This document shows positions 11,946 through 48,375 of a stretch of 64,000 nucleotides of DNA, piece by piece. The first letter of the stretch is position 1; the number at the start of each line of letters is the position of its first letter. The position numbers and the translations under genes are program-made. The notes beneath the pieces are model-generated. The model was not told the origin of the DNA, did not search any database, and saw only the letters and a program-made list of their open reading frames with translations. Source of the stretch: Mytilus galloprovincialis (Eukaryota; Mollusca; Bivalvia; Mytilida; Mytilidae); NCBI RefSeq assembly GCF_965363235.1, contig NC_134843.1, positions 95,451,795 to 95,515,794 of the forward strand. The letters run 5' to 3'.

Positions 11946-12495
11946 CATCGTCAGCTAACTTTTGATCCTGAATATCGCAACAATTCCATTTTATAAAACA
12001 AATGTTCACTGCGATGATCATAGGTGGCTTTAAGGGTAGGAGGGTGTCCTGGTGGGTTTTCTCGGAATTAGAACAATGTCTGGGTAGGGCGACTTGTGAT
12101 CCTGTTGACTTTTACCTTGTAAACTAGCATGTTAAATCGAGGTCAGAGTGTCAGTCGTCATATCGCTTTAATGCACTTGATTAATCATTTGTTTGAAACT
12201 AGTATCGTATTAGATAACCCAAGCGTTTATTGCGTCTGAATGATAATTAAATAATTGCAATGTAATCCTCAAAGCAAGACCACATTTTTTAGAACACACA
12301 ACTTAGTATTACCCAAGACCAGATTAACTATTAAAGCTAAACAGACTAGGTATGAACGATGGTATTGAAATTCAATGTGTAAAAAACAGGAGTTCAATTT
12401 CTTTTATTATCATTGTATGATTATTTTTAAATATTCAAAAAATAAGATTTATCTTATATTTTGTAGTCATCGGTAATGGTTTACCTGTTGTGAAA
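11946..12495 (+). promoter_or_regulatory. 5' flank of the transporter gene
   Basis: No TATA box or CpG island stands out. A good splice acceptor (TTATATTTTGTAG, ending at 12466) lies 29 bp before the start codon, so the first coding exon probably begins at 12467 and a 5' UTR exon lies upstream. I cannot locate that exon. Confidence 0.3.
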
Positions 12496-18400: not shown

Positions 18401-21400
18401 TTTTTTCTTTTTTAAAGGCCGTACGGTTGGTTATGATTAAAATGGTGGATACTTGTCTCATTGGCTATCATACCACATCTCCTTCCTTATTATAAAAAAG
18501 TTGTGATATGTTCATAGATATAAACAAAAATGTGGTATGAGTACAAATGAGACAACTCTCCATTCAATTCACAATTTGTTAAAGTAAATAATTGTTGGTC
18601 AAAGTGCGGTCTTCAACACGGAACCTTGACTCACACCGAACAGCAAGCTATAAGGGCCCGAAACATGACTAGTGTTAAAGTACTCAAACGCAAATATCAA
18701 CGATCTAATCTATATAAATAAAAACGCGAAACGAAAGACATTTATATTCCACATTAACAAATGACAACCACTGAACATCAAGTTCTTGACTTATAATAGA
18801 TCCAAACAAATGGAACTGGTTTAAGCTTTTTGATAGGTACCACCTTCACCCTTACCCGAAACAAAATAGAAAGACATATTATAAAATATCAATTAAGATG
18901 ATTTCACTCAACAAAAGACATATGATCACAAAACAAGTGAATATACAATGAGCGAATAAATTGATATATGGCACAATGTAAATACAATATCAATAAAATA
19001 AGGGGTGAGATGTTAAACAATTTCAGAAATACCACCATCACCTTGAACAAAATGCCACCAAATAGAATATTGTACACAGGTAAATGAAAATAATTTTATT
19101 GTTAGGTATACATTAATGGAGAACAATATATTGTTTACATATTCATCACAGAACAAAAGTGAAAATGTATAGTCATACCAAACACCTATTAAAACTTGTA
19201 TATATTAGAAATAAAGAGACGAGATGCAAGTACACATTTAATTACAAAAAGCATTACAATTTGTATCAACAGGTCAAATCAACACGAAAGAACGATTTGA
19301 AAGTACTCTTGTCTACTGAACTGAATTTTGCAGGTCAAAACCAAATTTGCAGGTCAAAACCAAATATATCGTTTTTTCACCAAATGGAAAATATATTGGA
19401 GACAACAATTCTAAAGTTCTAGAAAATTAGATATTACACAAAAAAAAAACAATTTCTTGATTGCCCTACACCAATGGAACAAAATGTTTTATTATACGAA
19501 CTGTACTGTGAATCACGCAATATTGACCTCACAACATATATTGTCAAACAGAAATTCATTCGATAGCAATAAACACACAAGAAATGTTTTTGAAGACTTG
19601 ATGTGAACATATAACTATGGTATTCACTAGGATCCAATTACAAACTGTATAACTTTTTTTCAGATTATGTTATGTTGCCGCATATGATGGTCATTTGCCG
19701 TCTGTGTTATCATTCTTACACTTACGGAGACACACTCCGATCCCGTCCATGATATTTACAGTAAGTTTGAATGTACATTGATGCATATCGAATTTAAGTT
19801 ACAGTAATTGTTATTTTAGGTAAATTTGTAAAAGGGGAGTTTTACTTGGAGATCAACATTATTTAAAGTCTTATGAAACTTCAAATTACACAAACAAAAT
19901 CTCAAATTTAAAAGAAATTTCCTTTTTCTGAATTGTTGGCTTCCAGCCAAGAGGCCATCAATTTACCGACATGTTTTCCATATTCAATTATATCAGCCTT
20001 ACCTCAGCGTGAACTTTCTCGTATAAATCCGGCGAAAGCAATTAACACACCGGTTGGGCGATTCTGCGATTTTTTTTTACTAGATAAGACTTTGATTTTT
20101 TTTATTGAAATGTACAAAATAAATATTAATTGTGTATATAATGATTTGATCACAAAGGAGCAATGTAATGGCACCTTTAAATATATTGATAGTACCATAA
20201 TTTGTTTTGTAAAATATTACACTTGCTGTTTAATAAAAGTAACTTAGCAATAAGATAAAAACGACTTGTATGAGCATTTCGTTCAATAGACTTAGTTTTC
20301 AAATTTTCAAATTGGTTTTGACAATTACATCGCTTTTCATTAGAAACATGATTTTAGTTTTGAAATAAATAGTCAACTTTTTCACGTTAACTGCCATTTT
20401 AGCGGTATTTTTTACATTGTCGAATAAGCGGGAAGATTGGCTAGCCATAAAACAAAGTTCAACCCGACACATTTTTTTTTTAAATATCCTGTACCTTTTC
20501 AGATATAAATTGTTGCAGTTGCCGATTTTATGTAAGTTGTCGTTTGTTTTTGTTGCAGTTCAGTGTTTCTGTTCTTCCGTTGATTTCCTCTTATAGTTGA
20601 TGTGTTTCCCTCTGTTTTGTTTTGTAACCTGGATTTGTCTTCTCCTAATCGATTTATGACTATTGAACAGCGGTATACTACTGTTACATTTATTTAACAT
20701 CTTATTTTGGTTTAAAATTGTTCTTAAAAAAAGGATAATATTTCTAAAGATTTGTGTAAACTATATGAAATTTCATTGCCACAAATAGATGTAAGTCATC
20801 GTGCGCAGTTTACAAAAATGCGTATAACTTGGCTTGTTTTTCTCCCTTCAGAAAAGGAAAGCGCCTTTTTAAACGGCACAGCAATCGTCAACTTTCTTTT
20901 CTGACTTACTTATCAATATACCTGATTTAACAGATTATAACATTTTGTTTTTTGTAACGTTTCAGCTTATAATCTCAGCACTTTTAGTTGTTCCATTTGA
21001 CCTAAGTTCGTTGATTGGTTTCTTCAGTTTTACTGCTTGGATATTCTATGGCTTAACTGCTTCTACAGTACTTGTACTACGCTACAGATTTAAGCATAAA
21101 GCTGAACACGACAACTATCAGGTACTTACAAATAAAAAACTCCACTCATTTTGGGGTCCACTTCTATCAAAGCCAAAAGTTTCATATTTATATATCCCGT
21201 ATTTTCTGTCCCATTTTATTATCCCAGAATCATGCCAAAGTCAATTTGTTTCAAATTGCCAAAACTTTGATAATTAAAACACCTATTAGCGTGGTGGTGT
21301 AGGAGGAGACAGAGACACCAGTTTTGGTGCAAAATACACATACCAGTTGTTGCAGTGTGTAGATAATAACAAACAATGACATTCTATAGCTTTGGTTGCA

Positions 21401-23839
21401 CATTGGGGTTAAGAGAGTCTGACCATTGCATGTTTCACTCCAATTTAAAAGGTAACCATTTTAAATTTTAAACACTTGAAGAAATAGTGATAAATAAAAA
21501 AAAGGAGCCTAAGCTGAAATATATAAATAATGGAATATCGAGCTACACAACGCTTTTTTTTCTTACATATGCACACAATTTTGGGTTCTTTTCACATGTA
21601 TGATTTTTATCGGAAATACACGATTAAAGAAAAGTAGAACTTTCATAGCAGTAAAATAAATTCCTTGTTGAATGTCAAAGGGTATTTTACACAAATACCA
21701 ATTAGTTGGAATTATTAAGTGGACGTTTTGCAAAAAGCTATCAAAAGTACCAGTCTTATAATTTCATACGTGTTTCGTCTACATAAGACTCATCAGTGAC
21801 GCTCAGATAAAAAAAAAAGTTATAAAGCCAAACAAGTACAAAGTTGAGGAGCACTGAGGACCCAAACTTCCAAAAATGGTGTCAAACAAAGCTAAGATGA
21901 TATATGACTGGGATAAGAAAATCCTCAGTATTACAATATACTTTTGTCAAAGGGAAATTTATAAAAATGACGTAAACAAAGTTGTGTTGATGAGTTGCTC
22001 ATTTATTAGAAGTGACACATATAAATAAAAGATTAAATGTTTAAATGCTGGATTTTTAAGACTTTTTAGAATAAATAATAATTTAATTCATTTTCAGGTC
22101 ATTTTTCAGATACAGTCATTTTTTTAAGTACAATTTTCAAACAAGAGCAGGAACCTGTACATTTAAAAAAAAACCTTAGAAATTTATAATTGGTAGTTTC
22201 AGTCCCATGCTTAATGTATTTGTTTATTTGTTATACAAGTTTGTTCATGTTTGACCTGATGTTTTTTATGTTGATCTTTCAGGTTCCTCTTGTGGTGCCG
22301 ATTCTTGTTATGATTCTCTCTGTCTATTTAGTTCTCGTTCCTTTAATATACTTACCAAAGCCAGAATATATCCATGTTCTGATATTTATGGCTGTTGGAC
22401 TATTGTTGTACTTTTTGTTGGTTTACAAAGAAATAAAGATTCCATGCGTGGGTAAGTTATGTTAAAATAATTTAATTAAGGATGTAACACGTCTTTTGAT
22501 TTATTTTTTTCCTTTTTTATGTTATTTCTTCATAGACAGAAAACAATATTACAGTCATTCCTTAAATAATAATTTACCAGAAATAATTTTCAATAAGTAT
22601 ATATCAATTATGCATCCTGTTTACAAAACTTTGAATTTTCCAAAAAAACTAAGGATTTTCTTATCCCAGAAATAGCTTACCGTAGCTGTATTTGGCAAAC
22701 CTTTATGGAATTTTTGGTCCCCAATGCTCTTCAACTTTGTATTTGTTTGACTTATTAACTGTTTTGATTTGAGCGTCACTGATGAGTCGAATGTAGACGA
22801 AACGCGCGTCTGGCGTATTAAATCATAATCCAAGTACCTTTGATAACTATTCTGATTTGCGGAATATAAAGTATTTACGAAAGGTACTAGGGTTATAATT
22901 TAATACGCCAGACGCGCGTTTCGTCTACATAAGATTCACCAGTTATAAAGCCAAACAAGTACAAAGTTAAAGAGCATTAGAACTCCAAAATTCCAAAAAG
23001 TTGTGCCAAATGCGGCTAAGGTAAAGTTTTGTAAACAGGAAACATATAAAAATGACCATATAGTTGATATTCATATCAACACCGAAGTACTGACTACTGA
23101 TTGCAGAAAGTGCTTTGTCTATCAGCTCATAGACATAATTGTGTCATGTGAACACGACGTCATCAACGTTTTTATCATTATTTACTCCATTTTAGAATGA
23201 GATTATAAGGATGACTTTAATATTTTTTCTGTCTATTCGAAATTACATAAAAATATGATGCACAATTTTATATAACACGCTACGGGGTTATTAAATGTGT
23301 ACCACATTTTTGATGTTATTTCTTCAAAGACCAAAAAAATATTACAGTTATTCCTTAAATAATAATTTACCAGATACAATTTTCAATAAATATATATCAG
23401 TTATGCTTCATCCGTATTTGATATCATACTATTTTGTTCTTCAACTTAATTATTATATATATGTGTACTTTTATGATGTGTAATCGTATTATTTACACGA
23501 ACATGCATAGGTTTCCCTATGCCAGTTGTATGGAAAAAACAAAAATGCTTAATGTTACAATTGAAGTAAATATTTGAATTAATGATACAACAACTTAAAA
23601 AAATAGGTTGAACAAATTTGGATCCCACTTTTTTTACAGTAGAGTTAAAAGTAGAAATTCACTCAGAATAAACATAACATTTAGCATAAAGGAAGATTAT
23701 GTAAAGTGTTTAGTCTTAAATCAATATATCGGACAACTAATTAAATGAATAATTTTGGTGTGTTTTATTTGCAGGTTTAGCAACTAAATTTATGCAGAAA
23801 CTTTTTCTAATTGTCCCTCCTTCCGGGAAGGCAGAATAG
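12496..23839 (+). CDS. SLC7A9-like: b(0,+)-type amino acid transporter (SLC7 light chain), 11 coding exons
   Basis: Coding exons: 12496-12766, 13855-13956, 14386-14655, 15064-15289, 16761-16805, 17113-17236, 17745-17848, 19664-19760, 20966-21121, 22283-22451, 23775-23839. All introns are GT-AG, phases agree, and the sum is 1629 nt (542 aa plus stop). The start is the ATG after an in-frame GTG. Family members are twelve-helix antiporters that pair by disulfide with a SLC3 heavy chain (rBAT or 4F2hc) and exchange cationic and neutral amino acids at the plasma membrane. Seen: an Asn/Gly-rich N-tail of about 75 residues; the unwound TM1 motif GSGIF (91-95); [14 protein letters not shown] (129-142); Cys199 in PFYHDCLPP, where the heavy-chain cysteine falls; [11 protein letters not shown] in TM6 (280-290); and a VPP motif at 535-537, also present at the b(0,+)AT C-terminus. 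The N-tail is longer than in human SLC7A9 (487 aa), and residues around 151-161 look inserted. b(0,+)AT type is favoured over LAT by the TM10-12 and C-terminal match. Introns carry several repeats. Confidence 0.95.
14098..14240 (-). repeat. PLE-B 3'-end fragment in transporter intron 2
   Basis: The reverse complement matches the end of the 8497-9290 element: GGGGAATGTGTCAAAGAGAC, then GGTCACCAACAGGTCTTC and CCCGGAGGCGTCC. It lies wholly within the intron. Confidence 0.7.
15297..15552 (-). mobile_element. tRNA-derived SINE in transporter intron 4
   Basis: Read on the minus strand from 15552 it opens with a tRNA-like head. An A-box-like GAGTGGTCTGAGCAG is followed by a B-box-like GTGAGTTCGATCTC about 55 bp on. 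A body with ACTCCGGCTTCCTCCACCA and GAGTGGTGTTAAACACC follows, then a tail ending CAATCAAT and an A-rich run. The Leu/Ser-like head plus a conserved central domain is the layout of widespread invertebrate SINEs, which LINE machinery mobilises. Confidence 0.75.
15745..16018 (-). repeat. PLE-A 3' UTR fragment in transporter intron 4
   Basis: On the minus strand this is the 3' end of PLE-A with GGTCACATT-, GCAGGATCTG- and CACCTGAGATCAACC-like landmarks, ending GTTCCTCTGGTATCTTTTGCC and a short C/T run. It is 5'-truncated just before the UTR. Confidence 0.75.
18020..18490 (+). repeat. R2 mussel repeat, full copy in transporter intron 7
   Basis: It begins with an inverted R2 end (AAGAAGATGTGGTATGATTG). 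The forward R2 body follows with CTGTCTCATGTTAGGGAGAG, GGATCCTGTAGTTAAGTGG and TAAGGCCGTTAGTTTTCTC. It finishes with TCATACCACATCTCC. The body aligns well with 38600-39085. Confidence 0.7.
18528..18830 (-). repeat. R2-related repeat, inverted copy
   Basis: It begins with ATGTGGTATGAGTACAAATG and holds AGCAAGCTATAAGGGCCC, CTAGTGTTAAAGTACTCAAA and ACAAATGACAACCACTGAAC. It shares only its ends with the main R2 body, so it is probably a subfamily. Confidence 0.5.
20455..20695 (+). repeat. R3 mussel repeat, partial, in transporter intron 8
   Basis: It shares TATCCTGTACC, TGATGTGTTTCCCTCTG and the terminal AACAGCGGTATACTACTG with the R3 copy at 9300-9702. Confidence 0.65.
21735..21990 (+). repeat. 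R1 mussel repeat in transporter intron 9
   Basis: A diverged R1 copy: CTATCAAAAGTACCAGTC, CGTGTTTCGTCTACATAAGA, CTCATCAGTGACGCTCAGAT, then AAAGCCAAACAAGTACAAAG and CTGGGATAAGAAAATCCTCA. Confidence 0.75.
22515..23420. repeat. Composite of R1 (inverted pair) and a foldback-type repeat in intron 10
   Basis: Foldback-family ends (ATGTTATTTCTTCATAGACAG, then ATATTACAGTCATTCC) flank this block at about 22520-22625 and 23205-23415. Between them an inverted R1 copy (about 22625-22860) meets a forward R1 copy (about 22866-23120) head to head around 22862. The palindrome has arms of more than 200 bp at moderate identity. Confidence 0.65.
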
Positions 23840-32423: not shown

Positions 32424-35400
32424 ATGCTAATTTATTATCTAATTCTAGCTGGACTTATGTTAGTGTTTATGCAGACATGTCGTAAGTATAACAAATGAAT
32501 CTAATTGTTCATGTGTGCTTTCCAATTCTTTAACTATTCCATGAGGTTTAGCAATCGACCGTTTTATTCTATCAATGTTCAAGGCATTGAATTCACTGAT
32601 TCACAGTGTTTCTAGTGCGACTACTCGTGATACAATTGGATCGACATTAACAGGTACACCGACCCTACTATATAGCAAATAAAAAAAAAATTGACAGACA
32701 AGTTTGCCTTATTAAAAAAAAAAAAGAAAATTTACGAGTTGACAAATTATGACTTAATTCTTTTTAAAGTACCATATTGCATTCTTCAATGATTGAATAA
32801 TAATAAGTTATTACTTGATTTATTTCACTTGACTGGGCGGAGTTTAACCGGTTCGCTTATTCAAGACAAGTCCATCTATAAACAGGTGTTTCGGGATAAA
32901 CTCATCAATGAAGTGTCCAGTTATTCGTCCAATATCATACACTCAGTTCATTTGGATATCAGTTAAGTGACACTGATAGGTGATTAGAAATCAAGTATAA
33001 TTATAACGGCCATCATATCCTTATCACACACATCTTCAAATAGACTGTCCTAATGCAAATTAAAACCTAAGCTCCGCCCGATCAGTAGAAATAACATTGG
33101 TAATATCTGTGCTTTATTTCTGGATATAAATGCTGATTTATTCTTATGTTCTTTGTTCATTGAATTTACTTTTGATACAATATATGGTCTTTTGTTTACT
33201 GATAGCTCTCTGATGTTAGCTTGAGAATTGACAAAAAAGTTCTAAGAAAAAGTGTAGACATTGCTTATTTCAACCACCAATATTTTTTCGTAATGTTCAT
33301 TAATAAGAAGTCGGGGTAGGTAGCATTGTTACAAAAGAATTAGTTTTTTCATTTTAAAAAAGAAAGGTGACAAAAATGATATAAAATCTTACAGACCAAT
33401 CATATTACCTAATGTTGATTACAAGATTTTAGCCCGAATCATGGCGAATAGACTGAAATTAACATTGACAAAGATCATTAGTAATACACAAACTTGTTCT
33501 GTAATAGGTCGAGATATATCAGACACTGTATGTAGTATAGTTAACGTTATTGTTTTAATAGACGAAGAAGAGTTAGAAGTTTATTTTTAAAAACGGACCA
33601 AGAAAAGGCCTTTGACAGAGTTAGTCATGATTTTTTATTTAGTGTTTTAGAAAAATTTGGTTTCGGAGAAAGATTTAGAAAATGGATATCAATTTTTTAC
33701 ACGAATGTTAGAAGTTCTGTGAAGTGTAATAGGCATTTGACCCCATATTTTAGTTTTAATAACGGAATAAAACAAGGATTTCCTTTAAGTTCGATCCTAT
33801 ACACTATTGTTTCAGAAACATTAGGACAGGCAATTTTACAAAACACAGACATTACTGGTATAAAAATACCTGGCTCAAATATTTATTCCACTATTTTTCA
33901 GCATGCTGATGATACAACCTTTTCCTTGGCAAATAGGAAGTCACTTTTTATTGTTTTTGATATTCTTAAAATCTAAAGTGGTGCTTCAGGTGCTAAAATC
34001 AATAAAGAAAAATCTGAAATCCTAATATTAGGAAATGGATATTTGTTACAAAATGACATTGAGCAGTTAGGTATTAAGATATGTGATAATGTAATAGAAG
34101 TTTTAGGAGTTTGGGTAGGAAAATTTCAAGAAAAACGCAATATATTAAACTGGGAGAAAAAAATCAGCTCCATTACTACTGTTTTAAATTTATGGAAACG
34201 GAGACATCTTTCACTTCATTGTAGATTTGCTGTTATATCATCTCTTCTGATGTCAAAATTATGGTATACACTTACAGTGCAGACTATGCCTTCTAAGTAT
34301 TATTTACAAATTAAGAAAATATGTGTTGATTTTTTATGGAATTTTAAAACTCATCATGTGGCATATGAAACAATTATTTTAGAAAAATCTAAAGGTGGTC
34401 TGCATTTTCCAGACATAATGCTCAAAATGTTTGCCTTTAGATTAAAATTTCTTAGTAGACTATTAAATTCGGATTATTTTGCTATGGAAAAATATCTGTA
34501 TATACTTTTTTCAAAAATAGAAAATATGCTTGTCAGTCTGCCTCCTGAATGTGTACATTTTATCAATGAAAATATTAATCCAGTTTCAAAGAATTTTGAA
34601 GTAACTGCAGATTGTTTTTCTTTTTCTGTTGAAGATAAAGAAGTTCCTATGCCACAAAGTACTCGAACTTTTTATAATCTCTTAATACAAATTGTTGGAA
34701 AATTTCCTGTATCAGAATCTTATTGGATCGAAAAGTATCCAGAATTAGAACTTTCAAAATGTTATATTATTTAAAATTTATATATCTTGCCTGGTGAATG
34801 CAGGGAACTTAATTTTCAAGTACTTCATAGAACTTTGTTTACTAAAGTTAAACTTTTAAAATGTAACATGACTGATAATGACACTTGTCCAGTGTGTGCA
34901 CAATCTAGAGAAGATTTAGAACACATGTTTATTAATTGTGTCAATTTGTTACAATTTACTGATTTTTTTAAGGATTTTTTATTAAATTTTATGTGCAATG
35001 TTGATGATAACTTTGTAAATACGCTTGATTTTGACCAAGCGATGCTTATGGGTTTTTTTAAGAGAAGTAACGGGTTTAATTTTTATTTCGCTAATTTTTA
35101 ATGAGTATAGCAAGATTTAGTATCTATAAAAGAAGAATGTAGTATTGCTTTGTACTAGGGACCCTAACACAAAGATGAAAATTAAAATCAATCTTCCATT
35201 TTTTTCCAGATAATATTGTATCTTGCCAAGATGTCTCCATGGTACTAACACGTACAGCTCTATTTCAGCAAGAAAAACTTAAGTTTCGATGTAGTCCTTC
35301 TAATGTGGCAAGGTGGGGTGGTGTAACACACATCATACTCTCTAAAAATACATCAGCTGGTTTTTATGACATCGTCAGTGTTTTTCTTAATTTAAAAACT

Positions 35401-38400
35401 CTGCAAAATCAAACATTTTGGCATCGGTCGGAATGGCGAAATCGTGCCACTGCTATTAGAGAATATGTAAACCCAGTCACCACTTCGTCTGGACTAGAGT
35501 TTGACATCTCAGCCGATAACGTTTTATGTTCAGATGAAGGAACATATCGCTGTAAAGTCATAGGTTCCTCAACTGACAACCAGGCAGTACATATAGATAG
35601 ATTTGGAACAGTGAAATTCAAAGGTAGACAATTAAAACAGAAAGATAGAATGAGGTGTAGAAAAGAATTTTTTTAAGCAAGTTATTAATCATGATATGGC
35701 TTAGATTTCATATTATACTTATTTGGCGATCAAATTAAAGCCCTAGGTATTTTGAGTTATTTTATTCAGTTTATCGAATAAAGGCATTGTTTGATTATCA
35801 ACTTACTTTTGTTAAGATAAGGTAGGACTAAAATATTATGCAAACTGAATATAAATACGCTCAGATCAAAATAGTTATCAAGCCAAACAAGAATATCATA
35901 TTTTGAAAAATAATTTAGAAGTAAATAACATAGTACATAATACACCTATTTCCAGAATAAGAAATAAACTTCAAGGACGTTCAAATCGGTTTGTGTTTGT
36001 ACCGGCCGACAAAGCAGCCATCAATGCTGTGGTGGTATGCCGTAAATACTACACGGACGTTCTTAAGAAGGAAATTTTAAATTCATCTACATTCATGGCC
36101 ATGCGCTCCACACAGAGTCATATAGTAAACAAATATATCATAACCACATCGAAGCTTAAGGCTTCTTCTGAACAATTGAAGGTCCCTACTATGTATTGGC
36201 CACCTTAACTACACAAAACAAACTTTAAATATCGTTTCATCTCGGCCTTTAGTAATTATTCTACAACTAATCTTTCAGTGCTTTTAACAAGAACCTTAAC
36301 TACTATCATATAGTATATACTTTTAGATAAATTTGGAGTGTAAAATTTTTTTTGGATGTTTTAGATAAATTTGGAGTGTAAACAATTCTTTGGATGTTTT
36401 AGATAAATTTGGAGTGTAAAAAAATCTTTAGATGTTTTAGATAAATTTGGAGTGTAAAACATTCTTTGGATGTTTTAGATAAATTACTTGCTTTTGATGG
36501 TACTTTTGATTCTGTTGGCAAATTTGATTTTTCTACTCTTTACGCTACACTTTCACACTATTTTATCAAACAAAAGTTTTCCTATTTAATGAAACTGTCG
36601 TTTTGTAAATCTGAATGCAAATATATTTGCTGCAACTCATTTAAAGCCTTCTTCTCTAATGAGAAAGGTAAATATGCAAGATATACTTACTGGAGGTGTG
36701 ATGAGATGATTGATAGTTATCAAAAGTACCAGGATTATAATTTTATACGCTAGACGCGCGTTTCGTCTACATAAGACCCATCAGTGACGCTCAGATCAAA
36801 ATAGTTAAAAAGCCAAATAAATACAGGTTGTAAGTATCCCTATTGGCACTAATTGCTTCCTTTAATAACAGACTTGTTTTTGTACTGTTATGAATCACAG
36901 TTTATGACCAAACTCATAAAAGACCCGTCGAAATTGCATTTTATAGATAAATTCAACAACACGTATCATTATCTTGATGATATATATTTTCGTTAAATAA
37001 TGAAGAATTTCTCAATATACTGAAACTTACCCAAAAGGAACTTACTTTGAATAAATCTAATGTAAACGGTAATAACTGTCATTTCCTAGATTTCGATATT
37101 TAGGTTTTAAACGGGAAACTCCACACTAAAATTTACGTCAAAAGGGACGATCTTTCGTTCCCTATTGTTAATTTTCCATTTTTAGATGGTGATGTTCCTT
37201 TGGCACCATTTTACGTTGTTTATATTTTACAGCTCGTTCGCTATTCCCGTGTCTGTTGTGGCGTTTTTGATTTAACGAACGTAGATTATATATTACTGGT
37301 AAATAATTAAATAAAGGCAACAGTAGTATACCGCTGTTCGAAACTCATAAATCGATAAAAAAAAAAATCCGTGTTACAAACTAAAACTGAGGGAAACGCA
37401 TCAAATATAAGAGGAGAACAACGACACAACATTAAAATGTAACACACACAGAAACGAACTAAGCATTAGACAAAATCCGATGAGACCAACAAATAAAACA
37501 TCAAAACTAAATACATGAATTTGGGATAGAAAAGTACCGTCACACATCGTATAGTAATGTGAATTCACACTCAAGTATAAGAGGAAACAAACGACACAAC
37601 ATAAACAGAACGTTAAAATGTACCACACACAGAAACCAACTATAATATAACAATGGCCATATTCCTGACTTGGTACAGGACTTTTTTTTTAAAGAAAAAA
37701 CTGGTGGGTTGAACATGGTTTTGTGGCATGCCAAGCCTCCCGCTTTAATGGCAATGTTAAATATAACATTAAAATGACAACATAACATTACAGGACTACA
37801 ATTCAAATAAATAGGAGAACATATTAGACAAAGAAACACACGATGAATAGCTTACAAAAGGCAGCAAGTTTAAATTTTAATACGCCAGAAATGCGTTTCG
37901 TCCACACAAGACTTACTAGTGACGCTCAGATACAAAAGTTCGAAAGCCAAAACAAGTACAAAGTTGAACAGCACTGAGGACCAAAAGTTCAAAAAAGTTG
38001 TGCCAAATACGACTAAGGTTTTCTGCTTGGGACAAGAACATCCTGAGAACTCTCAGATTAAGCCAGGGATTTCGTTACCATAAATTACTTAAAACCTTTA
38101 CTATTTTTTTTCATAGATATAAAGATTTGGTTGTAAAGTTTGGTTGTACTTGGTAAACTTGTCGATGCTTTAAATAAACTTATTCTAAAAGGTTACTAAT
38201 TCAACACTGTAATAAGATAATTGAATGTTGTTTTTATTGGCATAACTTTTGATTTTTTTATCAGTAAATTAAAAACAAACTAAATATTACTAGTATGTTA
38301 TAAACATATACACATTCACGGATCTACAATATGTCGATACCTGTATCTTGGCATTGCACAAGTTCATGTTTTTCGCTGACTGTTTATGACGTCTTTACAC

Positions 38401-41400
38401 TAAAGCCATTGAATGTTGGATGTGTACGGATTGATAATTTTGTTTTAGATGCATGATTTTTTTATTAGTTGTTAGTAGCTCAGAACTAACTGTCTGTTAA
38501 CTTCGAGTACTCTGAGATCTGTTCCTAGTGTCTTTATTGTTGTTGGAATGTACAAGTACCTGGCCACGTTCACTTGTATTTTTGTCAATCTCAAGTTTTT
38601 AGCCCTTTTCAACTGATTTTTATAGTTCGTTCTTATGTTGTACTGTTATACCACTGTCCCAGGTTAGGGGGAGGGTAAGGATCCCGCTAACATGTTTAAT
38701 CCCGCTCCTTGAACTGATTTTTATAGTTTGTTCTTATGTTGTACTGTCATACCACTGTCCCAGGTTAGGGAGAGGGTTGGGATCCCGCTAAAATGTTTAA
38801 TCCCGCCACATTCTGTTTGTTTGTGTCTATCCCAAGTCAGGAGCCTGTAATTCAGTGGTTGTCGTTTGTTTATATGTTACATATTTGTTTTTTGTTCAAT
38901 TTTTGTACAAGGCCGTTAGTTTTCTTGTTTGAATTGTTATACATTGTCATTTCGACCGCCTTTAATAGCTGACTATGCAGTATGGGCTTTGCTAATTGTT
39001 GAAGGCTGTATGATTATATATAGTTGTTAATTTCTGTGTAATTGTGGTCGCTTGTGGCAATCATACCACATCTTCTTATTTTATAATCAACATTGGGGAG
39101 ACCAAAGTCGTTCGCACACACCTTGTAATATAAGAATATTATCCTCTACAACTTTGTACTTGTTTTGCTTTCTAACTATATTGATTATAGCTTCACTAAT
39201 GAGTCGTATGTAGACGAAACCCGCGTCTGGCGTTTTAAATTATAAGCCTGGTACCTGTGATAACTATTTAATAACTGATACACCTGAATGCATATCATAA
39301 AATAATTTTAAGATTTACCAATAATTTTTCTGGCCGATAAAATATTTGAAGGACTTTTCAGCATGATTTGATAAATAATATAACAGAATAGGCAGGACGT
39401 GAACAATCGTTTTGATAAAAATCTTGTATAATAAAACCTTCTGAAAAGCGTTTATTATATTTATGATTCTGAAAGTTTTTTGAAGAAAATAGAAACACCA
39501 AATTTATATAAAATTTGAAACAACAATGCTCAATTGCACACTTTGCACCAACTTAGAGATGCGAACGTCATACAAAGAATCAAACGGAATATACCTCATA
39601 CCTGGCTAAGAAAAGAAAAGTTACATCAGGAAATATAACACAATTCTAACTTATCAGTCAGTTACATACCTTCTGCCACATTGTATGGCGTTTATGTATC
39701 TCAATTGCAACGTTATCTTGCATATTTATACTAGACGGACTTCAATAGAAGGGGTCTGCTACTTAAACATATAGGCAAAACTGTTCCTACAGAGTTATGG
39801 GGGAAAACGACTGAAGTCAACACTACTTACATTTACTGTCACCATCACGATATGTCTATGTATCATCTCACTAACGACATGATTTTTAAATCTTAGAACT
39901 TTAGATACAAGAACAATCTTCTAATGTGTATATTTATCGAATCTTCTAATCTGTAACTTTAGCGAATCTTCTAATCTTTAACTTTAGTGAATCTTCTAAT
40001 CTGTAACTCTAGCGAATCTTATCCTATTCCCTTTTGCAACAGTTCGCCTTGATTTAGCATGGAGCAAAAATTATAAAATTAAACAAAAGGAACAGAGTTT
40101 GAAAGATAATTTATTTACAGAAATTGTCTTTTTAAACGGTTTATTTTTTAAGAATATATTCATGTTGACGTCTTTTTCAAATAACCAATTAGATGAATTG
40201 CTGACAAAAACATTTCTAGGAAAATACTTATTACTGTACCAGTGAAATTCTTGTGATTACAAAAATGTTTTTAATTAACAGATTTAAAGCTAAAACAATC
40301 CACTACTTTAACCTATGACGAATCAACAGGTATGGTATTTAAGATTATTTCTATCCGTGAAGAAAAGTCTACAACCGATATGCATATTTCTCTAATTCTT
40401 TGACAATTTATACCTTTCTATTCTCATTGTATAAAAAATAATAATCAATGTGTGATCTAAGAAGATGATGGGATGAGTTAAAGGGTCATAACCTTAATCA
40501 GCTTATTTAAATATTCTAACAAGGGTTAATGAAATTGACAACTATGTGAAATCTCGAAGGCAATCGAAGGGGATTTTCGTTTAACAAAAAAAACAAAAAA
40601 TATTTTTTAATCATTAGAGAAACAAATTCTTACATTGTTACTCATGGATTATCGGATTTATCTAATCTCGATAGTTAAATAATAAATACCAACTATCTCG
40701 ATTGGATAAATACGATAACCAACTGGTATCAATGTCAGAATCTATATAAAAGGATCTTTATGGACTATTTCTATAGTAAAAGTGCTTTGTATATAAATTT
40801 ATAAGTTCAATAAATATCATGTGAGAATGCCGTTTACAAGAAACATAGACTAATTTTATAAAACCTTCATTCAATTATTTCCTGGATATGCGTCCACAAA
40901 AGCTTATTATCAATGTACCGGAGTTATAGTACAAAAAAAATATCAAAGAAAACTCCGAACAAGGAGAGTGGATTGAACATCCACAAACATGGTTATACCC
41001 GCCAGTTATGGTGTGTACCTGTACAAAAATCACGAGCTTTAATTTCATTGGATGTTGTTTGTTGCTGTGCATAACATCTGCTTTTCGTCAATAATTGTTT
41101 TGTACATATATAATTTGAGTGACACATTGATTGAAAATAACTGTGTTCTTCTTTTCCAGCAGTAACATGTTCACTATTAAATCGGAGGGCGCAATGAAAT
41201 GATATACATATAGCGGTATAATTACAGTCTTGTAAAAACACAGTAATTGTTGTTTATACAATATAAAAAAAATAGTGGTATGACGGCCAATGAGACAACT
41301 CTCCACAAGTGACCACAATGACACAGTAATTAACAACTATAGGTCACTGTAGGGCCTTCAACAATTACCAAACCCAAGACCGCATAGTTAGCTATAAAAA

Positions 41401-44400
41401 GCCCAAAAATGGCAATGTAAACCAATTCAAACGAGAAAACTAACGGCCTTATTTATGTACAAAAAATGAACGAAAATCAAATATGTAACACAAAAACAAA
41501 CGACAACCACTGAATTGGATCTACATAATTTGTGAATCAATTAAGGTAGATCATTGGTTAAGGTTTCTTGAGATAGAACTTTCTTATACTTTGCCAAAAT
41601 GAAAGATTTTACTATGCTCTTTTCAAAAATATAATAAAAGGATGGATCACCGTGCTTTTTTTGAAGCTATGAGTCGTTGCTTAAATTTGCTCAAAATGAT
41701 CATGAAAAAAACACATTTTTTTGTCATAGAAAAAACTATGAGATATAATTTGGAAATAAATTGTGAGAAGATAGGTTTTATAATATTTTTTAAGAAAATA
41801 AAAGGAAAAAATGGTGTCACCAAACTCGTTTTCTTGCTACAAGTAAAAATAAAAATTTCCCTATCAGTCCAGTATAAATTTGTTATTAAATGGCTTAGTT
41901 GAAAAAAAAAATTTTAAACACAAATGTTTGTTATTTGTTTAAATATTTTAAGTAACGCAAATAAATTAGCAAGTTTTCTCCATATAAATAAACAGTCTTA
42001 TCCATAAAATTGCACATCTGTCTAAAAATTTGCAGATTTGGGCAAATAACTTGACTGATTGTGCACAGCAATAGTACAATCCAAGATGGCGGTATACTAT
42101 GAATATACCCTAAATAAAACATAAATGTGTTTATATATATATCGTTAACAATATAAGTAATTTATTGATTGAATTACATTTAATTTGATAATTTAATTCA
42201 TTTCCAGTCTGTTCATCCGAAATGAATACAATTTTAATAGCTTGCATTGCTATTCTAATAGCAGGGATTCTCATAGGATTTGCGATATCGGTTTTGTTAT
42301 ACAAAAAAAGTGAGTTAAACTTCAGGAATATGACAGTTATTTTCCATTCATTTAACGGTTTGCATCAAATTCCATTATATTGACAACGATGTGTGAACAA
42401 AACGAACTGACATAATAGGTGAAATGTCAAAAGCAGGGGTACGGCAGTCAACATTGTGTTTTAATTTTAATAACTATAAAAACAAACAAATATGTGCCAA
42501 AGAAGCAAACAATTACAAGTACATTCAAGAAACCTTATAAAAGAAACATGATAATGGTACAGAAATGTGTAACTTACTTGGATATACTTTGAATTGAAAT
42601 TATTTTTCCGGACATTGTTTTCTGTATGAACAAATTACTTCAGGCAATGTAAGCTTTTTAAAGATTAAACTACAAATTTTATTACAAATAGCAAGTACAC
42701 ATAAATCGAGAGCTTTAAACCTTTTTGTAATTTCATGGTTTTCTTGTAACTAACAGGTGTCATTGTTATAAAGTGGAAAAAAGAAAGGTGAGATCTTAGT
42801 TTTAACATCTTATCCCTCACTAGTAGATTTAATAAATAAACTAGAGGCTCTTAAAGTCATATGAAACGAGTGAGTGGTGAAACATAATGTTTATCCAATT
42901 CTTGAACCAATTCATGTATATATCATAAACTTAGTCCTCTGTGCACGATTTTATCATTATTTATGCAAATATATCATATAATCGTCAATTTTTTTTCTCT
43001 CTGTTTGTTATAATTTAACAAATATGGCTTGTCATTAAATGCCGTGTTTTGAAGCCGAGTTTTACCGATTGTCACCTTATAGTAAACAAATCACAAAAAG
43101 CATGGGTATTGAGCACGTGTTTAACATGTATAATCAGATATTTGTTTATTTCAATGACAGATCCATGCGTAATGCGATCACCGGATTTTTACGTGGAGGG
43201 TTACGCTCGGGTCACTATGCATACGGAAAATATTTCGGCGAATTGCTTCCTGGAAGCAAGCAATTAAAAATAAGTAAACTTCTTCTAAATGTGGACAAAT
43301 AAAAGAATTTTCCTCAGAAAAAAGAATATGTACATAAGTTGTATAATGAAAACTATCCATTTAGTTATAAAAAACATATGCATATTTTTTTTTAATTTGA
43401 GGTTTCTTATGACTTTAAGAGCCTGTGTCGCTCACCTTGGTCTATGTGCATATTAAACAAAAGACACAGATGGATTCATGACAAAATTGTGTTTTGTTGA
43501 TGGTGATGTGTTTGTAGATCTTACTTTACTGAACATTCTTGCTTCTTACAATTATCTCTATCTATAATGAACTTGGCCCTTAAGTAATAGAGGAAAATAT
43601 TTTGTAATTCATGAAAATTGTTGAAAATTGACTATAAAGGGCAATAACTCCTTAAGGGGTCAATTGACCATTTTGGTCATGTTAACTTATTTGTAGATCT
43701 TATTTTGCTGAGCCTAATGCTGTTTACAGTTTATCTCTATCTATAATAATACTCAAGATAATAACCCAAAACAGCAAAAATTCCTTGAAATTACCAATTC
43801 AGGGGCAGGAACCCAGCAACCAATTGTCCGATTAATCTGAATATTACAGGGCAGATAGATCTTGACTCAATTAACAATTTAACCCTGTCAGATTTGCTCT
43901 AAATGCTTTGGTTTCAAAGTTATAAGCCAAAATCTACATTTTACCCCTATTTTCTATTTTTAGCCATGGCGGCCATCTTGGTTGGTTGGCCAGGTCACCC
44001 CACACATATTTTTTTTAACAAGATACCCCAATGATGATTGTGGCTAAATTTGGTTAAATTTAGCTCAGTAGTTTCGTCGGAGAAGATTTTTGTAAAAGTT
44101 AACGACGACGACGGAGGTCACACAGGAAGAAGAAATATAAAATAATTTTGTCGTTTAAAGTATTTTCAAAATTATAATTTCACATGTTAAATGGTCCCTG
44201 TCTCTTACGGATGTAAACCGTGAAACTGTTTTGAACAGTAACCAGTAATAGGCCGTATATGAATAAGATATTCGCATGAATATCACATAGAAAATTCATG
44301 ATGTAAAACAAGTATATACTAACCTCATGTTTACAGTTATCTTACATGAAATTACGGGGGCAATACTTTTCTTGTGTTTGATAAAACCCTTCTAAATATA

Positions 44401-44682
44401 TTTCTAAACTGTATATATTTAGAGAGAAATATTCATTTTGTGTTTTAAGAGTTCCTGGCTATAGCATAGGTACTTCTTTACCCTAATAAAAAAGTGCATA
44501 ATATTTTTTTATGTGTTAGTGAATCAACGAAAAAAATAAAAAGTATCAGCAATGTCGAAATTATTAATTTTATGTTATTTATATTTTACAGAATATATAC
44601 AGATACAAACGCGACGACAACAACAGAGCATGATTATGATTCAACAACAGAATATCACATGTACAATATGGCAGAAGGCTGA
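32424..44682 (+). CDS. Ig-domain type I membrane protein, five coding exons
   Basis: I join 32424-32481, 35210-35623, 42208-42309, 42757-42787 and 44592-44682. All introns are GT-AG, phases match (1, 1, 1, 2) and the total of 696 nt gives 231 aa plus stop. Residues 1-19 (MLIYYLILAGLMLVFMQTC) are a signal peptide. Residues 20-158 form one Ig-like V-type domain from a symmetric phase 1-1 exon: Cys47 in LKFRC and Cys134 in SDEGTYRC form the expected disulfide, the DEGxYxC signature is complete, and Cys25 and Cys126 are extra. N-glycosylation sites are N66 and N86. Residues 166-189 are a transmembrane helix followed by KKSVIVIKWKK, a basic stop-transfer. The 30-residue tail has tyrosines at 204, 217, 223 and 226 but no canonical ITAM or ITIM. 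A cell-surface receptor or adhesion role is inferred. Further Ig exons in the 6.6-kb second intron cannot be excluded, but I found none. I do not recognise a named family. Confidence 0.78.
33350..35170 (+). mobile_element. Tx1/L1-like LINE fragment in Ig-gene intron 1
   Basis: The LINE lies in the same orientation as the Ig gene and ends about 40 bp before the Ig exon. It is 5'-truncated near SYRPIILPNVDYKILARIMA, the RT motif 1 region. It holds the RT core, the long C-terminal region and a short 3' UTR. Endonuclease and ORF1 are absent. Confidence 0.85.
33590..35101 (+). pseudogene. LINE reverse transcriptase and C-terminal region, inactivated
   Basis: One frame carries TDQEKAFDRVSHDFLF (catalytic Asp), GIKQGFPLSSILY and FQHADDTTFSLA (ADD box). 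In-frame stops at 33974 and 34772 interrupt it, and the part upstream of about 33590 lies in another frame. GGLHFPDIMLKMFAFRLKFL (about 34397) is the hallmark of Tx1/L1-type C-terminal regions. CPVCAQSREDLEHMFINC (about 34890) is the CxxC...H...C motif. HADD replaces the usual YADD, so even the active box is altered. Confidence 0.85.
36318..36485 (+). repeat. 38-bp minisatellite inside the PLE-B coding region
   Basis: Four-plus units with period exactly 38 bp (GATGTTTTAG at about 36355, 36393, 36431 and 36469). The unit equals one segment of the element's own reading frame (WSVNNSLDVLDK), so it is a local tandem expansion of element sequence. Confidence 0.88.
36713..36832 (+). repeat. R1 mussel repeat inside PLE-B
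   Basis: AGTTATCAAAAGTACCAGGA, CGCTAGACGCGCGTTTCGTC, GACCCATCAGTGACGCTCAG and AAAAAGCCAAATAAATAC: a short 5' R1 portion replacing PLE-B sequence. A further R1 scrap is at 35865-35905. Confidence 0.75.
37308..37850 (-). repeat. R3 mussel repeat, longest copy
   Basis: It begins with inverted CAGTAGTATACCGCTGTT and ends with TGGCATGCCAAGCCTCCCGC and CAACATAACATTACAGGAC. It contains the two internal halves seen at 9300-9702, each with a TTGTGTCGTT core. Confidence 0.7.
37853..38045 (+). repeat. R1 mussel repeat
   Basis: TACGCCAGAAATGCGTTTCG, CACAAGACTTACTAGTGACG and GTTGTGCCAAATACGACTAA, ending in TGCTTGGGACAAGAACATCC. It is diverged at the core. Confidence 0.75.
38600..39270. repeat. R2 repeat with a duplicated head, then inverted R1
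   Basis: 38600-39085 is a plus-strand R2 copy. Its first about 100 bp (GTTCTTATGTTGTACTGT, CCACTGTCCCAGGTTAGGG) occur twice in tandem. The end is CAATCATACCACATCTTC. About 39095-39268 is an inverted R1 copy (TCACTAATGAGTCGTATGTA, CGAAACCCGCGTCTGG). Confidence 0.75.
39911..40022. repeat. 25-bp minisatellite
   Basis: Four units of CGAATCTTCTAATCTGTAAC plus TTTAG with few changes, inside Ig-gene intron 2. Confidence 0.85.
40023..41250. other. Intron sequence without recognised features
   Basis: Part of Ig-gene intron 2. I looked for another Ig exon (paired Cys with a DxGxYxC signature between AG and GT sites) and found none. Confidence 0.45.
41255..41530 (-). repeat. R2 mussel repeat, inverted
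   Basis: AGTGGTATGACGGCCAATGA, ACAACTATAGGTCACTGTAG, GAAAACTAACGGCCTTATTT and CAAACGACAACCACTGAATT are the inverse of the R2 body at 38830-39080. Confidence 0.75.
41531..42125. repeat. Possible dispersed mussel repeat, single copy here
   Basis: The block from GATAGAACTTTCTTATACTT to ATCCAAGATGGCGGTATAC recalls a common mussel repeat from memory. There is no second copy in this window to prove it. An 86-codon open stretch within it looks incidental. Confidence 0.3.
42838..44120 (-). repeat. R5 mussel repeat, inverted, with a nested MITE
   Basis: The reverse of the R5 copy at 25.8-28.4 kb. It starts AACTAGAGGCTC, resumes after the MITE at GAGCCTGTGTCGCTCACCTT, passes GCCATGGCGGCCATCTTGG near 43970 and ends AAAAGTTAACGACGACGACG. 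It holds one unit of the tandem half and part of another. Confidence 0.8.
42851..43418. mobile_element. piggyBac-type MITE, TTAA-flanked
   Basis: TTAA occurs at both borders (42851-42854 and 43415-43418). The 560-bp insert (42855-43414) has inverted ends AGTCATATGAAACG and, inverted, AGTCATAAGAAACC (12 of 14 match). Removing it with one TTAA restores the R5 terminus GAGGCTCTTAAGAGCC, close to GAGGCTCTAAAGAGCC in the other copy. TTAA duplication is the piggyBac signature. No transposase is encoded; an 87-codon frame at 43039-43302 has no recognisable domain. Confidence 0.75.
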
Positions 44683-45985
44683 TTATTCTTTTATTGAGAT
44701 TAAGATGATATTTTCTTTTGTAGACATATGGTATCTGCTCTCTGGTCGGGTTGTTTGACACATTCTCCATTTTCATTCTTAGTTTTATTTTGGTACATTG
44801 GAAATATGCAAAAACTGTTAGATTATAATAATTATTAAATCAATTGATCGAAACCGTCTTTTTCTTTTTACGAAATAAGCATGATGTCATTGCCATGTTG
44901 CTTTTTCATCTTTCCGGGACCACTGCATAATTATTTGTTCAATAATATCATTATGCTTTTAAAATTTAGAGATATGTATTGTGATTTAATTTCTTTATAA
45001 CATGAAGTAAGCTAGTTAAATACCATTTAAATTGTGTTTAGTTTTGACATTTATCAGTGCGTTGTCATGTTGAATTCAAAAATTTGTACTCAAATTCTGT
45101 GTTATGAAATTATTTTAAATTTGGATAAGAACTTCATACTGTGTGTCACGATCATAGTGATCCTGTTTTCTCTGTATGTTTATAATGAACAGTTTGATGA
45201 TATATATATTTATCGTTATTTTTGGCATTTTTCCTTTGATCTTTTTTTGTGATAATCTTTCATATCATTCTACTTGCTTGAGATGTAAATTTACCACTAG
45301 AAACGTGGCGTTGCTAATTAGATTGATATGAAATTGACAATGTCGTCATAGGTAAAATAGCGGTAGACAGATTATCATTGGTCATCTCAACTCGATTGCT
45401 TTTCTTACTTTCGCCGTACCGGCTCAACCGAAATCAATCAATCTAGTTGATATGATCAACGATAATCTATGAATAAAGCATGAAGTTTACATTACATATT
45501 ACAACGAAGGTCTTTGTATTATAGAAAGGCATGATATTTCATCAGGAAGCTTATACAATTTCATCATTTTTAGAAACATTATTTGTACACACACTTTTTA
45601 CATTGGTGATACATTGGTGATACCGATTTCGGTCGAACAACATTACTATCCAATAAACTGTAGTGTACAAATCGTGTATAACTTAACTCAATATTGGTTT
45701 GTCAGCATATAAACACAAAGGATGATAAGTCTACAATAGTTATTTGTCATCTATTTATGTAAAATTATCAAACTCAGCCGAAAATTTGTATTTTGTATCA
45801 ATGTCAGAAGTATGTATATGAATAATTGAGATGAGTATAGCATGAATTCTAGCAGTGAATGATAGGAAGCCGAACGACACTAACAAAACATATTTCAAGT
45901 CATATTTGATTTTAAATAAGAGGTAATAGTATCTTATATATCTGGACATAAAAATTGGTTCTTACAAAATATGTTCAACCGGACT
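44683..45985. other. 3' flank of the Ig gene
   Basis: A short PLE-B end (GTCGGGTTGTTTGACACATT, about 44735-44790) lies just after the stop codon. An AATAAA at 45472-45477 could be the poly(A) signal, giving a 3' UTR of about 0.8 kb. Otherwise nothing is recognised. Confidence 0.35.
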
Positions 45986-46389: not shown

Positions 46390-47090
46390 ATCCTTATTGA
46401 CTCTTAAAATTCAAGAGTCTATCTAAAAATGAGGGTACTTTTTCTAAAACTGAGGGTACTTTTTATATGGCCTCCCAAATACCGTTTCGATCCCTAACAT
46501 CACTGAAGAGACATTTATTGTCGAAATCCGGATCTGTTGTGCTAAAAAAATATTGACACCGTATGTTTGTAGCATAACATCGTGGCCACAAGTTGATTTT
46601 TTTCTGTTTAGTATTAAATTTATATTAAGATCCATTTTGTTACTCTTGTGATCAATTTTATTTGGCAATCGCCAATGGCAGTCAGTAGGGTTAAAGAACA
46701 TCAGTTGTTCGACCTGTTAGTCAAATGCGTTTTGTTTAAATATACTTTTTCACTTTTTTGGTCTTTTGGAAAATGTTGTTTGTGCTGTTTTTAGACCCTT
46801 CTACAACGAAATTTGTTTTACATGCACACGTATAAAAATTGCGGTTTTTATCTAACGCAATCATAGGTTTGAACGTAGTTTTCAATTTAGACTCGTATAT
46901 ATATATATGTGTGTGTGTTATATATAGCGGAAATCAGCCAAGAGATGTTGTATAACATAATTAGTCACCAGTGAGAACATCTCACTTTCCTGTCTTCAGC
47001 AGTTCACCACTGCTGCACATATGATCGTAGATAGAAACACTACAACAAGGATTAAACTGAAACTGCCACTCAACTATCAAGGTTGCAACC
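46390..47090. other. Probable old repeat and 5' flank of PLE-A
   Basis: GAGGGTACTTTTT occurs twice (46430-46465). TCACTGAAGAGACATTTATT followed by GTCGAAATCCGGATCTG resembles CGACAATTAATGTTTCTGC at about 17600 in inverted form. The stretch 46920-47020 may belong to the PLE-A 5' region. No gene is visible. Confidence 0.35.
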
Positions 47091-47094
47091 ATGT

Positions 47095-48375
47095 ATCAGC
47101 TTCTAAAGGGGGCGTGAATCAGATGTGGATACTTAAAAATTCCAAAGATCTTTTAGAGTACATACAATCTAACTCTCTTTCATCTTGTAACAGTATTAAA
47201 ACATTTGACTTTTCTCCTCTTTACACTAGCATTCCACATTCCAAACTAAAAGACAAATTGAAAGAGTTGTTATTGCTTTGCTTTGTAAAAAAGAATGGCC
47301 AACGTAGATACAAGTATCTTGTCTTAGGGAGGGATAAATCCTACTTTGTAAAGGATCACTCTGATTCGAACAAAAAATTCTCTGAAACTGATATTATCAA
47401 GATGCTTGATTTCTTGATTGACAACATATTTGTTACGTTCGGAGGACGTGTTTTTCAACAGACTGTCGGCATTCCAATGGGAACAAACTGTGCCCCTCTA
47501 CTTGCCGACTTGTTTCTTTATTATTATGAGGCTGACTTCATGCAGGAACTTCTTAGGAAGAAAGATAAGAAGTTAGCAATATCCTTTAACTCTTCTTTTC
47601 GCTATATAGATGATGTTCTTTCACTAAATAATTCAAAATTGGTGACTATGTGGAACGCATCTATCCAATCGAGCTAGAGATAAAGGATACTACAGATACA
47701 GTTAAGTCGGCCTCATATCTTGACTTACATCTAGAAATTGACAATGAGGGTCGGTTGAAAACAAAACTTTACGACAAAAGAGATGATTTCAGCTTTCCAA
47801 TTGTGAACTTTCCATTTCTAAGTAGCAACATTCCAGCAGCACCTGCATACGGGGTATATATCTCCCAATTGATACGATATTCCCGTGCTTGCATTTCCTA
47901 TCATGATTTTCTTGATAGAGGGTTGCTGCTCACAAGGAAGCAATTAAACCAAGAGTTCCAAATGGAGAAGTTGAAATCATCCCTTCGTAAATTTTACGGA
48001 CGCCATCACGAGTTGGTTGACCGTTATGGAATAACCGTTTCACAAATGATATCGGATATGTTCCTTACGTCGTAACTACAACCCCCTTCCCTTTCATGAA
48101 TGTGACCTACCGAATTAGACTATTTACCGGATTTGATATCACATAAGCAACACGACGGGTGCCGCATGTGGAGCAGGATCTGCTTACCCTTCCGGAGCAC
48201 CTGTGATCACCCCTAGTTTTTTGGTGGGGTTCGTGTTGTTTATTCTTTAGTTTTCTATGTTGTGTCGTGTGTGCTGTTGTTTGTTTGTCTTTTTCATTTT
48301 TAGCCATGGCGTTGTCAGTTTGTTTTAGATTTATGAGTTTGACTGTCCCTTTGGTATCTTTCGTCCCTCTTTTTT
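47095..48375 (+). mobile_element. PLE-A Penelope-like retroelement, main copy
   Basis: Parts: the RT core, GVNQMWILKNSKDLLEYIQ (about 47105-47165), FDFSPLYTSIPHSKLKDKL (block A, about 47205), TVGIPMGTNCAPLLADLF (about 47465) and FRYIDDVLSLN (YIDD box, about 47600). A C-terminal region with SYLDLHLEI (about 47715) and FPIVNFPFL (about 47800) leads to LRKFYGRHHELVDRYGI (about 47985). The 3' UTR runs to about 48375. Penelope-type RTs are related to telomerase RT. No GIY-YIG endonuclease is visible and the 5' part is missing. The coding region is broken. Confidence 0.75.

Follow-up and report, generated by a model that had tools for sequence, protein, structure and literature searches.

A five-exon gene of Mytilus galloprovincialis that very probably encodes a single-domain immunoglobulin-superfamily receptor, best read as a derivative of a V-C2 family

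In a 64,000-nucleotide stretch of chromosome C6 of the mussel Mytilus galloprovincialis (C6:95451795-95515794, hereafter the window; contig NC_134843.1 of assembly GCF_965363235.1), five exons very probably make up a real gene, which lies among retroelements and encodes a small immunoglobulin (Ig) superfamily receptor of the cell surface. Joining positions 32424-32481, 35210-35623, 42208-42309, 42757-42787 and 44592-44682 of the window yields 696 nt, that is 231 codons and a stop codon, and all internal borders have AG before and GT after the exon. The five exons, GT-AG introns and in-frame product of 231 residues described in an earlier note on this DNA were thus reproduced exactly. The gene is indeed, as that note had claimed, invisible in any one frame, with its Ig exon sitting inside a 165-codon open frame that starts at 35179. 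The layout, with a signal peptide, an Ig domain on a phase-1 exon, one transmembrane (TM) helix and a cytoplasmic tail, is that of a type I Ig receptor as far as sequence can tell, and such a receptor, as proposed in the note, is still the best reading given the Ig paralogues, their identical splice phase, a signal of purifying selection and the presence of signal-peptide and TM exons. We put the probability at about 0.72 that the exons form one gene for a 231-residue type I protein, which descends from a V-C2 family and whose lineage has lost the second Ig domain (Ig2).

The Ig exon and its coding capacity

Exon 2 (35210-35623, plus strand) encodes a single V-like Ig domain (Ig1). The exon comprises 137 full codons and is symmetric, with phase 1 at both ends, as had been noted before. 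A tblastn search of the whole genome (1.385 Gb in 331 contigs) identified two paralogous Ig exons on the same chromosome, at 10.460 Mb and 63.583 Mb (E=8.2e-36 and 8.0e-34), which are 45-46% identical to the window protein over residues 21-188 and 19-184, and 49-52% identical over the Ig part. Both paralogous Ig1 exons are open and have, as in the window, a phase-1 acceptor and a phase-1 donor. The idea that these close paralogues are spliced retrocopies, suggested by matches running from the Ig into the TM part with stops, was dropped, as the extra length is read-through beyond a GTAAGAG donor.

Pairwise comparison of the window Ig exon with the two close paralogues gave ratios of nonsynonymous to synonymous substitution rates (dN/dS) of 0.52 (bootstrap 0.32-0.83) and 0.51 (0.32-0.77), with synonymous sites close to saturation (dS 0.84-1.34, two methods). 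Simulating random substitution 3,000 times at each of two levels left the exon open in 4 runs at 0.42 substitutions per site and in 366 at 0.1 per site, so that only a young pseudogene would fit an open exon of this kind. Given its two paralogues, their shared phase 1-1 borders and the dN/dS values, the window Ig exon is almost certainly coding.

The canonical cysteine pair of the domain is, by position, Cys47 and Cys134, and the B-strand cysteine and the F-strand cysteine with its DxGxYxC pattern (C47 ... D128-E-G-T-Y-R-C134) align with those of the paralogues. An extra cysteine, Cys126, lies 8 residues ahead of the F-strand cysteine, producing the pattern CxDxGxY that is common to all seven aligned Ig1 rows, and two N-glycosylation sequons are present at residues 66 and 86. 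A profile built from the seven rows recognised known Ig structures in the PDB, the best being a VEGFR1 chain (3.9e-7), followed by an Ig-like domain protein (2.4e-5), contactin, Robo, NCAM, PD-L1 (0.019), SIRP and CADM3. Among the 60 listed of 103 matching chains, most belong to the Ig superfamily, and the few non-Ig chains (gamma-adaptin, 0.1) are close to chance level; a single paralogue used as the query gave weak matches to shark VNAR (0.014). Pfam cut-offs were reached by none of the seven Ig1 and seven Ig2 sequences scanned, a set that did not include the loci at C6:10.417 and C6:14.588 Mb. The V-set match of the single Ig1 sequence remained under the cut-off (E=0.034, 14.8 of 26 bits), and the Pfam entry nearest to Ig2 is C2-set_2 ('CD80-like'), for which one Ig2 scored 20.9 of 21 bits (E=3.8e-4). 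We read Ig1 and Ig2 as a V-like plus C2-like pair, and the window domain as V-set-like, albeit under Pfam cut-offs.

A V-C2 family and the missing second domain

At least nine loci, that of the window gene included, carry an Ig1-like exon. In addition to the close paralogues, more distant relatives were found on C2 and C11, both of which recover the window exon when used as queries (E=7.7e-6 and 1.1e-5), and profile searches added Ig1-like exons on C7, on C5, at C6:10.417 Mb (E=3e-9) and at C6:14.588 Mb (E=1.1e-4). C11 carries additional copies of both Ig1 and Ig2, and other matches include weak Ig2-like ones and, on C8, an Ig1-like fragment interrupted by stops. Each of the two close paralogues has, 0.8-0.9 kb downstream of Ig1, a C2-like Ig2 exon, which is again phase 1-1. 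At all eight other accepted Ig1 loci (two weak), Ig1 has an Ig2-like exon after it on the same strand, a count that is partly true by construction because the C7, C5 and C6:14.588 Mb loci were found through Ig2. The pair is clear at C6:10.460, C6:63.583, C2, C11, C7 and C5; at C6:14.588 Mb the Ig1 is weak, and at C6:10.417 Mb a weak Ig2 (E=1.9e-4) lies 3.9 kb beyond Ig1. Consensus-like phase 1-1 borders were seen for 11 of the 13 exons checked, the ambiguous cases being the Ig1 donors of C7 and C5. Two Ig2-like exons, on C10 and C9, have no Ig1 within 1.2-1.3 kb upstream.

The arrangement of a V domain followed by a C2-like domain, present at the eight other loci, was not found in the window. 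No Ig2 was detected in the window by tblastn at E<1, and an Ig2 profile run at maximum sensitivity gave matches at chance level only (best E=2.6), none of which falls on the plus strand within the interval from the Ig exon to the TM exon. A tree of seven rows places the window exon together with both close paralogues on C6, at a support of 92/95, just under the star threshold; long branches leave the rest of the tree unsure. Since the two tree partners of the window exon carry Ig2, parsimony suggests that Ig2 was lost in the window lineage, and the best reading of the window gene is a member of a V-C2 receptor family reduced to one Ig domain. This loss would be the one unexpected feature of the gene.

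Several further observations were made at the related loci. The genes at C6:10458578-10460170 and C6:63582054-63583775, both on the minus strand, form a duplicate pair 53 Mb apart with an Ig1 dN/dS of about 0.5 and an Ig2 dN/dS of about 0.96 with a wide interval (0.40-2.99), which raises the possibility of relaxed or diversifying selection on Ig2. The Ig1-like exon at 10.417 Mb (C6:10409001-10418900, minus strand) is located about 43 kb from the 10.460 Mb gene and on the same strand. Further Ig exons were seen downstream of the Ig1-Ig2 pair at 63.58 Mb (C6:63550001-63600000, minus strand, around positions 22383, 30337 and 32418 of the joined stretch), two of them of a GNPxPxVxW type that is nephrin-like by eye; these belong to the same gene or to a neighbour. 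The Ig1 domains at C7:74637070-74637432 and C5:15052651-15053007 are 77% identical to each other and lack both canonical cysteines (F in the B strand, G in the F strand), with the extra cysteine and DxGxY kept.

The remaining exons and alternative readings

Exon 1 (32424-32481, plus strand) provides the start codon and the signal peptide MLIYYLILAGLMLVFMQTC and ends in a phase-1 donor, GTAAGT. It was recognised by a fixed filter for an ATG, a hydrophobic core and a phase-1 donor, which was matched 14 times in the 488 kb scanned, including window exon 1 and one exon in each close paralogue. The signal exons of the paralogues, MPHNLLALILIITL/G and MSHHLLALILIITL/G (slash, end of the last full codon), precede Ig1 by 4.0 and 2.2 kb; they share the design of window exon 1 and resemble each other, but not window exon 1. 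With the cleavage site predicted accordingly, the mature chain could start at QDVS in the window gene and in both close paralogues.

Exon 3 (42208-42309, plus strand, phase 1-1) encodes a short stalk and a TM helix (MNTILIACIAILIAGILIGFAISVLLY), the core of which has no charged residues and contains a GxxxG motif (GILIG). Under a strict filter (phase 1, Kyte-Doolittle hydropathy of at least 2.6 over 21 residues, pyrimidine share of at least 0.55, donor score of at least 4) this exon is the sole match on the 128 kb of window strands, and one more was found on other strands, which total 360 kb. This filter was adapted to the window exon, as the pyrimidine limit was cut from 0.7 to 0.55 after a stricter run had matched nothing, the window exon included. 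Laxer settings gave 31 matches in the 488 kb, 6 of these on the window plus strand. Signal-peptide and TM exons in the spacing of the model were absent from all 192,888 anchors drawn at random outside the locus, with single rates of 0.067 and 0.020 (product 0.0013) and with filters that had been tuned for the window exons to pass. Their joint presence at this locus seems to be far above chance.

Exon 4 (42757-42787, plus strand), which is 31 nt long and leads from phase 1 to phase 2, encodes the basic juxtamembrane segment VIVIKWKKE and is the only phase 1-to-2 candidate within 42310-44570 at all three settings used, two laxer ones included. Exon 5 (44592-44682, plus strand) encodes the cytoplasmic tail RIYTDTNATTTTEHDYDSTTEYHMYNMAEG and the stop codon. 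Its frame appears to be coding, with a codon score of 0.313 per codon, equalled by 0.2% of 4,000 stop-free null frames, and the frame that results from skipping the 31-nt exon scores -0.05; the test was trained on only 1,764 codons and applied to all five exons. The tail has 42 residues, with tyrosines at positions 204, 217, 223 and 226, and matched none of ten motif patterns, which included the immunoreceptor tyrosine-based activation, inhibitory and switch motifs (ITAM, ITIM and ITSM), hemITAM, YxxM, YxN and YxxPhi. The description of a four-tyrosine tail without a classical ITAM or ITIM therefore holds. A possible polyadenylation signal, ATTAAA, is found by pattern at 44834-44839 on the plus strand. 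We infer that all five exons are spliced together.

A number of results weigh against this gene model or against the family assigned to it. Genome searches that used residues 1-47 or the TM-tail part as query found no homologue of exons 1, 3 and 5 elsewhere, the weak remaining matches falling inside paralogous Ig exons, and the 31-nt exon is too short for homologue testing. Only the tail clearly beats the null of the codon-score test, the fractions of null frames scoring as high being 0.591 for exon 1, 0.275 for the Ig exon, 0.15 for the TM exon and 0.436 for the 31-nt exon. The donor of the Ig exon, AAG/GTAGAC (slash, exon border), is weak with a score of 2.5, compared with 4.0-4.5 for the other three donors; it is nonetheless in the same place and phase as in the close paralogues. 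The Pfam search of the 231-residue model, a check named in the earlier note, was run and yielded no domain above cut-off, and an AlphaFold2 model from the single sequence without an alignment has a mean predicted local distance difference test (pLDDT) score of 41.8. With regard to the family, the C7 Ig1 exon does not recover the window exon when used as a query, and C7 and C5 are tied to the family through the profile only. The strict, window-fitted TM filter found no TM exon at C6:10.460, C6:63.583, C2 or C11 in the limited downstream stretches scanned, so that membrane anchoring of the family depends on one relaxed match, a plausible TM exon after Ig2 in the C11 relative. Relaxed matches in the close paralogues and on C2 were set aside as too common to be trusted, C11 perhaps excepted, and among hydrophobic frames listed without a splice test on the C7 and C5 stretches none was convincing as a TM segment.

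The lack of homologues for exons 1, 3 and 5, the weak Ig donor and the Ig2 exon in eight related loci would also fit a real Ig exon that belongs to another transcript, one that uses other or further exons, for instance an Ig2 located beyond the window or another tail, or that encodes a secreted form. An additional phase 1-1 exon candidate within intron 2 (36479-36667), the only other one between the Ig and TM exons at the setting used, points in the same direction. However, FDFSTLYATLSH in this candidate resembles FDFSPLYTSIPH of a reverse transcriptase-like open reading frame (ORF) at 46961-47677, so it looks like retroelement sequence. The searches for Ig2 in the window were negative, the signal-peptide and TM exons occur together far above chance, and no candidate but the 31-nt exon fits the phase; we consider a different transcript unlikely. 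Less likely still is a recent pseudogene, in which a V-C2 receptor gene would have lost Ig2, gained retroelements and ceased to be expressed, for each of the five exons is open and keeps the phase, even if the missing Ig2, the retroelement sequence in intron 1 and probably intron 2, the weak Ig donor and a pairwise dN/dS that averages both branches, and is thus compatible with recent relaxation, would suit it. The five-exon receptor gene remains the preferred reading.

Surroundings, possible function and comparison with known receptors

The earlier statement that the gene lies among retroelements is borne out by RVT_1 sequence in intron 1 and, probably, a retroelement in intron 2. Intron 1 contains broken reverse transcriptase ORFs of the long interspersed nuclear element type on the strand of the gene (33545-35101, plus), with an RVT_1 match of E=4.7e-15 for 33545-33973, no Pfam match for the ORF at 33977-34771, and an open reading frame only at 34775-35101. 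Short ORF fragments, identified as open frames, occupy 35855-36753 on the plus strand in intron 2. Beyond the gene, a reverse transcriptase-like fragment at 46961-48075 (plus strand; RVT_1 E=1.5e-5, below cut-off), which we take to be Penelope-like, appears related to a fragment in intron 2 (36445-36753). A long non-LTR (long terminal repeat) retroelement at 1258-4483 on the minus strand has an RVT_1 frame of 812 residues with an endonuclease-type frame next to it. At 12421-22465, the plus strand carries exons of an amino-acid transporter that by eye is SLC7-like; one of the frames there matches AA_permease_2 with E=9.5e-6 (25.2 of 27 bits) and another has no match.

We propose that the protein is placed at the cell surface and consists of a signal peptide, one V-like Ig domain, a short stalk, a single TM helix and a tail of 42 residues, four of them tyrosines. 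It would have arisen from an ancestor of the V-C2 family, in which a signal peptide is followed by Ig1 and Ig2 and a membrane anchor is likely for at least one member. The V-like domain would be held near the membrane, where its ligand could be microbial, soluble or displayed by another cell. The absence of charges from the TM helix speaks against association with a charged ITAM adaptor of the vertebrate type, and the GxxxG motif of the helix suggests dimerisation. Any signalling might proceed via the tyrosines of the receptor itself instead of a charged adaptor, in which case a Src-type kinase could phosphorylate them and SH2 proteins could recognise them outside the classical motifs. The receptor may have a role in immunity or adhesion, as the earlier note suggested for mollusc Ig receptors.

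Similarities to vertebrate V-C2 receptors (B7/PD-L1, nectin/CADM, SIRP) include the weak PDB matches of the Ig1 profile to PD-L1, SIRP and CADM3, an Ig2 in the relatives that scores just below the C2-set_2 cut-off, phase 1-1 Ig exons and type I topology. The window protein differs in its single Ig domain and extra cysteine, and the similarity is weak; orthology is not implied. Among molluscs, Ig proteins named in the sections of a review used here are fibrinogen-related proteins (FREPs), MDM and oyster CgIgIT2 (PMC11999971). CgIgIT2, termed inhibitory in titles of the reference list of that review, is likewise a type I Ig receptor with a signalling-type tail, but has five Ig domains and a classic ITAM, whereas the window protein has one Ig domain and neither ITAM nor ITIM (PMC11999971). 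FREPs share one or more N-terminal Ig domains with the window model, which differs by its TM helix and by the absence of fibrinogen matches in the Pfam scan (PMC11999971). The clustered Ig-domain genes of the pearl oyster are bivalve Ig genes with a C-terminal TM domain; as far as the parts cited describe them, they often carry fibronectin III domains, absent from the window model, and are named by PF13927 (PMC9646362). In a mussel transcriptome, V-set (109) and other Ig domains are reported to be common, which makes Ig genes as such unsurprising (PMC5549309), and the window gene would be an additional Ig-superfamily receptor, a well-known kind of protein. Its layout does not appear in the portions of PMC11999971, PMC9646362 and PMC5549309 drawn upon here, and our search of the open-access literature found no paper tied to this V-C2 family.

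Taken together, the loci described here would represent a bivalve receptor family that is missed by standard domain scans, and the window gene a testable case of Ig-domain loss. By analogy with paired receptors, one might speculate, with considerable doubt, that this Pfam-invisible bivalve V-C2 family with an extra V-domain cysteine includes the window gene as a short partner, of the activating or decoy type, for the longer members, cut down to one V domain next to the membrane and a tail with non-canonical tyrosines. If it is true that long and short members are paired receptors, molluscs would provide an independent instance of that immune design.

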